NCBI RefSeq assembly: GCF_009177065.1 | Contig: NZ_WEZF01000014.1 | Coordinates: forward strand, 62,001 to 126,000 | Length of the DNA: 64,000 nt | Source: Tautonia marina | GTDB lineage: Bacteria > Planctomycetota > Planctomycetia > Isosphaerales > Isosphaeraceae | Reading direction: 5' to 3' | Shown: in pieces, positions 1 to 49,934 of the stretch | How positions within the stretch are numbered: position 1 is the stretch's first letter | Layout: each line of letters opens with the position of its first letter | Position numbers and translations under genes: made by a program | Notes under the pieces: model-generated | Told to the model about the DNA's origin: nothing | Databases searched by the model: none | What the model saw: the letters and a program-made list of their open reading frames with translations, nothing else

Positions 1-593
1 AAACGAACCCGTCGCCGGATCGTCCCCCTTGCGAAACGAAGCCGATGCCCCCAGCAATCGCCCCGCGATCACCCCTGGCCGCCCCTTGATCTCCCTGCCG
101 GCCGCCTCCCCTCGGGAGAACCGCCGCGCCCGACGCGCTCGGGCCGCCGCCGCGCGACGGTCGTGAGGTCCGTCGATTCGTCCCTCCGTCGTATCGTTTC
201 CACCCTCAACGGATGCGTTGTGGGTGGCCCCGGTTGCTCGCCAACCGGGGTCGCGGAGCGACGAGAGGTCTCAGTGCGGCCTTCCGTTGCCTCTTTCGGC
301 TGCGCCGCCCCGGTTGGCGAGCAACCGGGACCACCCAAGACAAGGAGCGGCGCATCAGTTGAGGTTGGAAGCCGTACTCCTGCGGCAACGTCTTCGCGGT
401 TGCGACGAATCCTCTCTGGGAAGGGGGGATCGGATCGGCCCCGTTCGCCTGTGCCTTCGTCGTGTCCGCTTCATTCTTCGCCAACGGACGAGGGATTCAT
501 TGCGTGATTCTTGCAATCACGTTCAGGGCTGTGTATACGTCTGGAGCGGCTCACGTCACCGTCCCATCCAGGCCCGATTCGGGAGTCTCCGAG
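1..593. other. Intergenic region with repeats, no gene
   Basis: No reading frame here looks like a protein; the long frames are arginine/proline-rich readings of GC-rich DNA. It holds two short GAACGAAAC-type motifs at 1-43 (same family as the array at 48580-48905) and a 115-bp hairpin repeat at 222-336. The rest, up to the start of the YIP1-like gene at 594, shows nothing else I can name. Confidence 0.6.
222..336. repeat. 115-bp inverted-terminal hairpin repeat, copy 1
   Basis: The ends are 29-bp inverted repeats with one mismatch (GGGTGGCCCCGG... at the left, ...CCGGGACCACCC at the right). Each arm contains its own small palindrome (CCGGTTG/CAACCGG). A clearly homologous 116-bp copy lies at 49474-49589, sharing both arms and central words such as TCGC(G/A)(G/A)AGCGACGAGAGGTC and GGCTGCGCC. 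No transposase is encoded, so it is a non-autonomous intergenic repeat of REP or MITE type. Its function is unknown. Confidence 0.85.
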
Positions 594-47666: not shown

Positions 47667-48440
47667 GTGCGCATCTTGCTGACGAACGACGACGGGGTGT
47701 ATGCCGCCGGCCTGCGGGCCTTGCACAAGGAACTGACGAAGCTCGGCGAGGTGACGGTGATCGCCCCGGCTCTGGAACAGAGCGGCGTCGGCCACGCGAT
47801 CACCTTGCTCGACCCGTTGATCGTCTCGTCGATCGACGACGTGGACGGCTCTCAGCTTGGGCTGGCCGTCGAGGGGAGCCCGGCCGACTGCGTGAAGCTG
47901 GCGATTTACGAGCTGATGGATCGGCCGCCGGACCTGATCGTCTCGGGGATCAACCACGGGGCGAACGCGGGGATCAACGTCCTGTACTCGGGCACGGTGG
48001 CCGCGGCGATCGAGGGGGCCTTCTTCGAGATCACCAGTGTTGCCGTCTCGCTCGAATACAGTGAGCACTTCGACTTCCCCTATGCCGCCCGCCACGCGAG
48101 GCGGGTGATCGAGACGATCCTGAGCAACAACCCCCCGGCCGGGTCGTTGTTCAACGTGAACATCCCGTCGCACAACCGAGGGGAGCCGAAGGGGATCAAG
48201 GTGGTGCCGATGGGGGTCGGCCGCCACGGCGAAGGGTTCGAGCGCCGCCGCGACCCGAGGGGCCGCACTTACTACTGGATGACCTATTCCCCCCCCTTCC
48301 GCCTCGAAGGGGAGGCCAGCGACGTGATCGCCCTGGCCGACGGGAACATCACCGTCACCCCACTCCAGTTCGACATGACCCGCCACAACCAGCTCGATGC
48401 GGTCCGCGACTGGACCTGGCCGGGGCCGGAATCCTCCTGA
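47667..48440 (+). CDS. surE: 5'/3'-nucleotidase SurE
   Basis: The 257-residue protein starts at GTG 47667 so that it begins VRILLTNDDGVYAAG, the SurE N-terminus with the metal-binding NDD; TTG 47661 is an alternative. VIAPALEQSGVGHAIT and LIVSGINHGANAG, the latter with the catalytic Asn, and TSVAVS are family blocks, and the length matches the usual ~250. SurE dephosphorylates nucleoside 5'/3'-monophosphates in the cytoplasm and is linked to stationary-phase survival. The upstream minus-strand genes are divergent. The downstream region is repeat-rich. Confidence 0.93.
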   Translation: MRILLTNDDGVYAAGLRALHKELTKLGEVTVIAPALEQSGVGHAITLLDPLIVSSIDDVDGSQLGLAVEGSPADCVKLAIYELMDRPPDLIVSGINHGANAGINVLYSGTVAAAIEGAFFEITSVAVSLEYSEHFDFPYAARHARRVIETILSNNPPAGSLFNVNIPSHNRGEPKGIKVVPMGVGRHGEGFERRRDPRGRTYYWMTYSPPFRLEGEASDVIALADGNITVTPLQFDMTRHNQLDAVRDWTWPGPESS

Positions 48441-48579
48441 CCGCGATCCGCCCCCTCGCCCCTCGCCGGTGTCTCTCCGACCGTCCTGATCGACGCCCGG
48501 TGCGCTCCCTGCGTCCAGGCGGTGCGCCCCGGGCGTTCGTCGTAAGTCGTGGCGATACAGCCAGAACCGACGAATTCGA

Positions 48580-48905
48580 GGGTTCGTTTCGGGACGTCGG
48601 CCGGGGAAATGGGTTCGTTTCGTCACGCTCGGCCGCGGCGTTCGGACGCAGGGCCCGGCGGGGGAATGGGTTCGTTTCGTCGGGCGTGGTTGCCCGGCCT
48701 GGACGGGGCGCCCAACGGTCGGATGGGTTCGTTTCGTCAGGCTTGGAAGATCGGGTCGACTGGCCGGGGGGAGCCTCGGTGCGCCTGGCAGGATGGGCCT
48801 GGTGCGCCGAGGAGGATTGACGCAACGTCTTTTCAAGGAAGGACTCGCGGCTCAATCGGGGCTTCGTTTCGGGAATGGACGCCCTCGGAATGGCTTCGTT
48901 TCGCG
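48580..48905. repeat. Array of GGGTTCGTTTCG-type short repeats
   Basis: The core GG(G)(T/C)TTCGTTTCG(TC) occurs at 48580-48591, 48611-48624, 48668-48681, 48725-48738, about 48861-48871 and about 48892-48903. Core-to-core spacings are 31, 57, 57, 135 and 32 bases. Copies are nearly identical while the spacers are unrelated. The same core, inverted, begins the window (1-10 and 31-43, 33 bases apart). This is an array, but not CRISPR: cores are too short and no cas genes are near. Confidence 0.75.
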
Positions 48906-48994
48906 CCCGGGATCCGGGGCGGTCTGCGAGGCGAAGGTGCGCCTCGGGTGCGCCGCCTGGTGCGCTCCACCATGGGGTGAGACGTTTGGGATGG

Positions 48995-49139: not shown

Positions 49140-49473
49140 CGAAGCAAGCAGTCATGCCGCCCGTCGCCCATGTCTGCAAGCATAAGACTTGGGGCGGCTC
49201 GATGGGGAGGTGGGGCGGGGCTCTGTCTTGCGGATTTTCAAAGAACGGGCGGACGCGAAGGGGGGCCCTACGGCCCGGCTCGATCCGATCCCGGCGCGGG
49301 AGCAGGGCGAGGGGAGCGCAAAAGGCGACGAAGGCCCCTTCCCTGATAAGATCGTGAAATGCGGGGGCGGCAGTCACATTTCCTCCGGGACGGCGGAAGA
49401 TATCAGGCGGGGGGAGGGGTCGGTCGGCGTCTTGATCATCCGATCAGGAGGGGCCAGAATGAGGCGGCCGCGC

Positions 49474-49589
49474 GGGTGGCCCCGGTTGCTTCGCCAACCG
49501 GGGTCGCGAAGCGACGAGAGGTCACGGAGAAGCATCCCGACGCCTCTTGCGGCTGCGCCACCCCGGTTGACGAGCAACCGGGGCCACCC
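49474..49589. repeat. 116-bp inverted-terminal hairpin repeat, copy 2
   Basis: This is the homologue of 222-336, with the same GGGTGGCCCCGG left end and CCGGGGCCACCC right end. It ends exactly where the AT-richer toxin-tip reading frame starts, so it marks the boundary of the acquired or rearranged segment. Confidence 0.85.
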
Positions 49590-49934
49590 GCGAGGGGCCG
49601 CATATCTGGTAATCCTCGCTCGTTTGGCACACAATCTCACCTTACCTTTGAGCGACTCAACGACCGCTTGAATCGTCGCCTGATCGATCAAGGCAGTTCG
49701 TTCAGAGTAGCAACAGAAGAGTTTCGTGATGCCGCTGGTGTCGTAGTTGGTAGACGTGCTAGAGGTTCGATTGGTGCTGATGCCGTCATCCGAAATCTTG
49801 ACGATGCTTCTGTGCTTGAGATTCTTGACCTGAAGACGCACGGGGGTATCCTGCGACCGATTTCTCCTTCACGACAGACGCAGTTTGGAACACGATTTGG
49901 CGCACCAGCGCAGGAGATATTTAGACAGCGATGA
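49590..49934 (+). pseudogene. Detached C-terminal toxin domain (RHS/polymorphic toxin tip), nuclease-like
   Basis: From the edge of the hairpin repeat the frame encodes about 114 residues of protein-like sequence, ending at 49934: LTFERLNDRLNRRLIDQG, then RGSIGADAVIRN and LEILDLKTHGG. GADAV followed by ExxDLK resembles a PD-(D/E)XK nuclease core (Asp, then Asp/Glu-x-Lys). Short terminal nuclease domains of this size are typical tips of RHS/WapA toxins, and an RHS core fragment lies at 50784. There is no proper start: the repeat replaces the 5' part, so it is a silent cassette or a remnant. The stop overlaps the next start as ATGA. Base composition is AT-richer than the surroundings. Confidence 0.55.

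Follow-up and report, generated by a model that had tools for sequence, protein, structure and literature searches.

CsrA is titrated by the multi-site sponge RNAs CsrB and RsmZ, and to our knowledge, apart from rRNA and CRISPR, multi-copy untranslated RNA loci seldom combine an rRNA-type antitermination signal with a promoter of their own. The boxA signal is known upstream of rRNA and of CRISPR arrays, and Nus factors acting on it oppose Rho termination (PMC5725501, PMC7862264); for CRISPR leaders PMC7862264 cites Stringer et al. REP sequences are repeats scattered between genes and associated with a multi-copy protein family, RAYT (PMC2817692).

The window analysed here is a stretch of 64,000 nt from Tautonia marina (bases 62001-126000 of contig C14, in a genome of 7.07 Mb). 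Read on the minus strand, the core array it contains is, judging by sequence organisation, one of about 35 multi-part intergenic loci, whose plan was found by printing loci side by side on the strand showing CGAAACGAACCC. Each locus begins with a promoter-like element (P), often followed by boxA, and continues with one to three modules, in which CGAAACGAACCCA cores about 33 nt apart are followed by a CGCAACTCCTT-like box and then by GCGCACC repeats. The parts found in the window are listed below, together with the end of a gene of the KHGL protein family, which is described further on.

49351-49377, minus strand: promoter-like element P, GTGACTG at 49377-49371, 16 nt, CGAT at 49354-49351 (PWM score 44)
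49232-49245, minus strand: boxA-like TTCTTTGAAAATCC
48936-48965, minus strand: first GCGCACC tract, three copies 11-12 nt apart
48892-48903, minus strand: core 1, CGAAACGAAGCC
48860-48871, minus strand: core 2, CGAAACGAAGCC, terminal core of module 1, with ATTCC before it
48808-48859, minus strand: module 1 tail, with boxes CGCGAGTCCTT...GTTGCGTC (from an alignment of 68 modules)
48778-48807, minus strand: second GCGCACC tract, two copies, starting 64 nt past core 2
48725-48736, minus strand: core 3, CGAAACGAACCC
48668-48679, minus strand: core 4, CGAAACGAACCC
48611-48622, minus strand: core 5, CGAAACGAACCC
48580-48591, minus strand: core 6, CGAAACGAACCC, terminal core of module 2
48528-48579, minus strand: module 2 tail (..CGACTTACGAC..; from the module alignment)
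48499-48527, minus strand: third GCGCACC tract, two copies, starting 64 nt past core 6
1-166, plus strand: 3' end of a KHGL gene that starts at about C14 61018, outside the window (open frame, 82% identity to the KHGL of locus L134)

The original prediction, which correctly guessed a planctomycete, had described six cores with spacings of 31, 57, 57, 135 and 32 bases, and these were confirmed: GGGTTCGTTTCG is exact at window positions 48580, 48611, 48668 and 48725, and GGCTTCGTTTCG at 48860 and 48892. The two opposite-strand copies, at 1-10 and 32-43 of the window, are also present, 33 bases apart (contig C14 61999 and 62032); another 33 bases upstream, beyond the window edge, there is a third copy. 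The idea that the same family opens the window was correct as to the cores themselves, but these are in frame, reading RNEP/RNEA, within the 3' end of a real gene; the KHGL match extends to window 163 and the stop codon to 166, the frame-2 translation ending ..RRS*. Beyond the last pair of GCGCACC copies in the array lies the 3' end of a convergent surE (ORF ends at 48440; Pfam SurE). No intrinsic terminator or sigma-70 promoter was found in the window locus, and Rfam, CsrB/RsmY-like families included, gave no match in the window. Looked at for the terminal inverted repeats of a miniature mobile element (MITE), the window locus has near its ends a 27-nt, 74% complementary candidate pair (48490-48516 with 49305-49331). 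A second dispersed repeat, palindromic and REP-like, occurs at window 221-340 and 49468-49595 (GGTGGCCCCGGTTG ... CAACCGGGGCCACC), and similar sequence was seen in locus L162 of G021.

In the window alone, matches to the core with up to two mismatches were in weak excess (15 against a mean of 9.7), so it is the genome-wide count that establishes enrichment: the search that had been proposed found 85 exact copies of CGAAACGAASCC, the reverse complement of the core as first reported, compared with 3 for the reversed control. A module contains between one and five cores, usually spaced at 31-36 nt, and in promoter-led loci 23 of the 33 core-to-core gaps shorter than 120 nt fall in that range. The predicted preference for a set distance is therefore real, but the notion of multiples of about 30 was wrong, because 57 does not fit such a series and 135 separates two modules. 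The terminal core is usually preceded by TTCC or GA and followed after 12-13 nt by the CGCAACTCCTT-like box and then by a TTnCGTC-like box. GCGCACC copies mostly recur at 11-12 nt. From the terminal core to GCGCACC the distance is 64-67 nt in most G000 modules, with unrelated letters between, as for both terminal cores of the window locus, and mostly 97-109 nt in G002. The sense strand of the loci is C-rich (38% C, 27% G).

P has the consensus TTTTGTGTGACTG-n16-CGATNAT, with 23 nt from GTGACTG to CGAT. Exact GTGACTG-n16-CGAT occurs 41 times in the genome and never in the reversed control; congeneric genomes hold 69 (G002) and 38 (G003) P sites, and numbers elsewhere are about chance level. Thirty of the 41 were inspected, about 23 leading into core modules, 3 into KHGL genes, 2 into other ORFs and 2 into nothing. 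Conversely, among 84 exact cores in the loci that were read, about 53 lie less than 950 nt downstream of P, one mismatch being allowed in the P search, and about 12-15 lie in or at KHGL genes. These loci were gathered partly via the core itself, though there were independent searches for P sites and for KHGL genes.

Downstream of P, loci often carry boxA as TTCTTTGRCAAYC, with TTTGRCAA falling within about 115 nt of P where boxA occurs. It was found in 15 of 36 untranslated P loci and in 0 of 15 P loci with KHGL (Fisher p 0.002), the 36 being made up of 33 scored by a script with a crude KHGL filter (15 with boxA) and 3 reassigned by eye; random windows contained it at 0.7%. The 16S leader of the same genome carries CTCTTTGACAATCC, indicating that the locus motif is the organism's own boxA. 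As in rRNA leaders (PMC5725501), the consensus lies near the 5' end of the transcript, here a putative untranslated one, which unlike that of the leaders is not rRNA. More than half of the loci, and the arrays in several other genera, are missing boxA, which counts against reading them as untranslated RNAs. In having a promoter and boxA ahead of an untranslated repeat array, the core loci also recall CRISPR, but they have no palindromic repeat and their cores are 12-14 nt long. A CRISPR array was rejected on the spacers of these loci, which are vertically inherited, orthologous and drifting between G000 and G003 (L040 with L131), not acquired.

A co-occurring protein, which the original prediction thought worth seeking, was found in KHGL, a family of multi-copy genes with P before them and the N-terminal signature NRxNAxxSTGPxTxEGKARSRxNAxxHGL. 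Nearly all congeneric KHGL genes have a P-like site upstream. Searches of Pfam, NCBIfam, PHROGs and PADLOC gave no convincing match to the family, and its predicted model, all-helical with a mean pLDDT of 77, has no fold match in PDB or BFVD. Most core-rich genomes encode 20-37 copies and G018 encodes 8, with few or none in core-poor genomes; over 25 family genomes core and KHGL counts correlate (Spearman rho 0.69, not corrected for relatedness), G006 being an exception with 19 KHGL matches and 1 standard core. Many KHGL genes carry cores in or just past their 3' ends. In the genus Tautonia these are in frame and read RNEP, in G004 they read ETNP/ETKP or lie just past the stop, and in G021 they lie past the stop. 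Like the G006 exception, two findings count against the untranslated-RNA reading: the cores are antisense in the KHGL genes of G018 and G010, and most KHGL genes of G023 have no core at the end.

The pairing of KHGL genes with arrays recurs under other promoters. In G023, AAAGTAGGGAGG occurs eight times genome-wide, six times before KHGL genes and twice before core arrays, including one of eight copies; in G021 there are three copies of CGGGACG-n16-CGATNNTAA, one of them ahead of KHGL and two ahead of arrays, and both arrays have boxA after this P equivalent. These tests were prompted by wording seen to be shared in a few loci, but the genome-wide site lists were unselected. One G021 array, L263, is built of the variant core CGACCGAACCCAA. 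That the promoter wording differs by genus and the pairing stays is the strongest sign of a functional tie between KHGL and the arrays.

The reading we prefer, to which we give an even chance, is that the array is the body of a co-regulated untranslated RNA locus on the minus strand, running from P at 49377 towards the convergent surE. P would drive minus-strand transcription through the modules, boxA would allow RNA polymerase to pass along an untranslated transcript rich in C, and a trans-acting factor, most likely KHGL, would bind the repeated cores and GCGCACC boxes at the RNA level. Since KHGL mRNAs bear the same core near their 3' ends, the untranslated RNAs, expressed together with them, might set KHGL activity by acting as decoys or scaffolds, a step that we regard on its own as doubtful. 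The logic would resemble that of CsrA with CsrB, in that a multi-site untranslated RNA is proposed to titrate the protein of a co-regulated gene family. Unlike CsrB and RsmZ, the loci are many and show no GGA-hairpin pattern, the core being CGAAACGAACCC, and KHGL matches no family, that of CsrA included. More broadly, we tentatively suggest as a possibility an undescribed RNA-protein system of the Isosphaeraceae, in which about 35 dispersed, boxA-led, untranslated repeat RNAs and 20-37 KHGL paralogues would be placed under one lineage-specific promoter, with KHGL binding the cores and the promoter reworded in each genus while the pairing is kept. No description of the core motif or of KHGL was found in open-access papers. 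If true, planctomycetes would gain a genome-wide RNA circuit; the pairing of the loci with a large orphan protein family makes the function of both directly testable, and the loci may account for odd small "hypothetical proteins" called over such arrays.

A serious rival, in our view unlikely, is that the boxes act as double-stranded DNA, forming a phased array on which a DNA-binding protein, KHGL or some other, would organise chromatin or mark these loci, with transcription from P incidental. The rigid, helix-like spacings fit such an array (GCGCACC at 10-12 or 22-24 nt, cores at 31-36, core to GCGCACC at 64-67), a duplex site could tolerate the opposite-strand cores in the KHGL genes of G018 and G010, and RNA structure is lacking: RNAalifold finds no pairs in the modules, and natural modules fold no better than chimeras, which also counts against the preferred RNA reading. 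The 11-nt steps in the core-to-GCGCACC distance, however, could arise simply where the first copy of GCGCACC is degenerate, as seen in L173, and helical quantisation of that distance was set aside for this reason. Strand also argues against a duplex array, with cores downstream of P running 172:0 sense to antisense in three genomes and GCGCACC 314:2, counts in which modules of one locus and orthologous loci are non-independent units; such consistency is nevertheless expected without any RNA function if the loci share one ancestor. BoxA, which is specific to the untranslated loci, likewise argues against a duplex array. The protein-binding array of the original prediction, taken as bare DNA sites, is too simple, since the array belongs to a longer locus that has a direction, with a promoter, boxA and another family of repeats.

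We consider it improbable that the loci were left by a KHGL-encoded mobile element as non-autonomous remnants, with a promoter at one end and modules at the other, and spread in the past as REP did via RAYT. KHGL and untranslated loci do have the promoter and 3' motifs in common, most core-rich family members carry 20-37 KHGL copies per genome, and two locus pairs are clear duplicates. Against this, most core loci of G003 whose flanks match stand in synteny with core loci of G000, unlike REP/RAYT; a search of the untranslated loci found no KHGL remnants; KHGL was found in no phage and gave one weak match among plasmids; and boxA would be needless. The cores also outlast their surroundings: across 16 aligned pairs, cores remain exact in 40 of 56 cases compared with 17% of 12-mers within 60 nt, and GCGCACC is kept at 77% compared with 28% for its neighbours. 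A few of these cores appear to sit in coding sequence. All 16 loci favour the core over its surroundings (per-locus Wilcoxon p=1.5e-5). REP/RAYT itself (PMC2817692) shares with our loci the link between dispersed intergenic repeats and a multi-copy family, but was rejected: the cores are not palindromic and show no hairpin beyond chimeras, and KHGL, with an all-helical model without fold match and no Pfam, NCBIfam or PHROG match, does not correspond to the Y1 HuH transposase.

That the loci are functionless decayed repeats or mis-annotated repeat ORFs, the former also raised by the original prediction, fits the unrelated intervening sequence and broken frames but is very improbable, given that cores and GCGCACC are conserved, that module geometry is constant across unrelated spacers, and that in each of three genera both kinds of locus have a promoter in common. 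A protein-coding repeat ORF was rejected because the spacings of 31, 57, 57, 135 and 32 break the frame and because the cores read RNEP, ETNP/ETKP or GFVS, or lie in the 3'-UTR, depending on the genus. The earlier view that selection acts on nucleic acid and not on peptide gains from the broken array frames and from cores that outconserve their surroundings; with KHGL-gene cores in differing frames, after the stop or antisense according to genus, the conserved thing cannot be a peptide.

Exact-core counts range from 0 to 119 across the family genomes, G000, G002, G003, G004, G010, G018, G021 and G023 being core-rich, and are mostly close to the control in the other sampled families of the class. 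In a scan of named genomes, out-of-frame core arrays were also seen in Acidobacteriota and other planctomycetes, and the motif may be older than the Isosphaeraceae. An uncultured Planctomycetales bacterium has a KHGL-type gene with four cores (L238, 5900-7004), and at about 4500-5200 of L163 (G021:C85) a core-like motif is repeated six times in frame (ETKP/QTKP), apparently coding, with third codon positions conserved. A longer repeat, about 90 nt in length, is present in G018 (L157-L160): GACGAAACGAAGCCAATCGAGG ... ACTTACGGCGCGC ... TTGTACAGG. The acidobacterial arrays (L232, L235, L236, L239 and L253, from Bryobacterales, Terriglobia and Sulfotelmatobacter) often have spacings around 34-36 nt; in L236, from a Bryobacteraceae genome, three cores stand exactly 18 nt apart, directly after an apparent reading-frame end.
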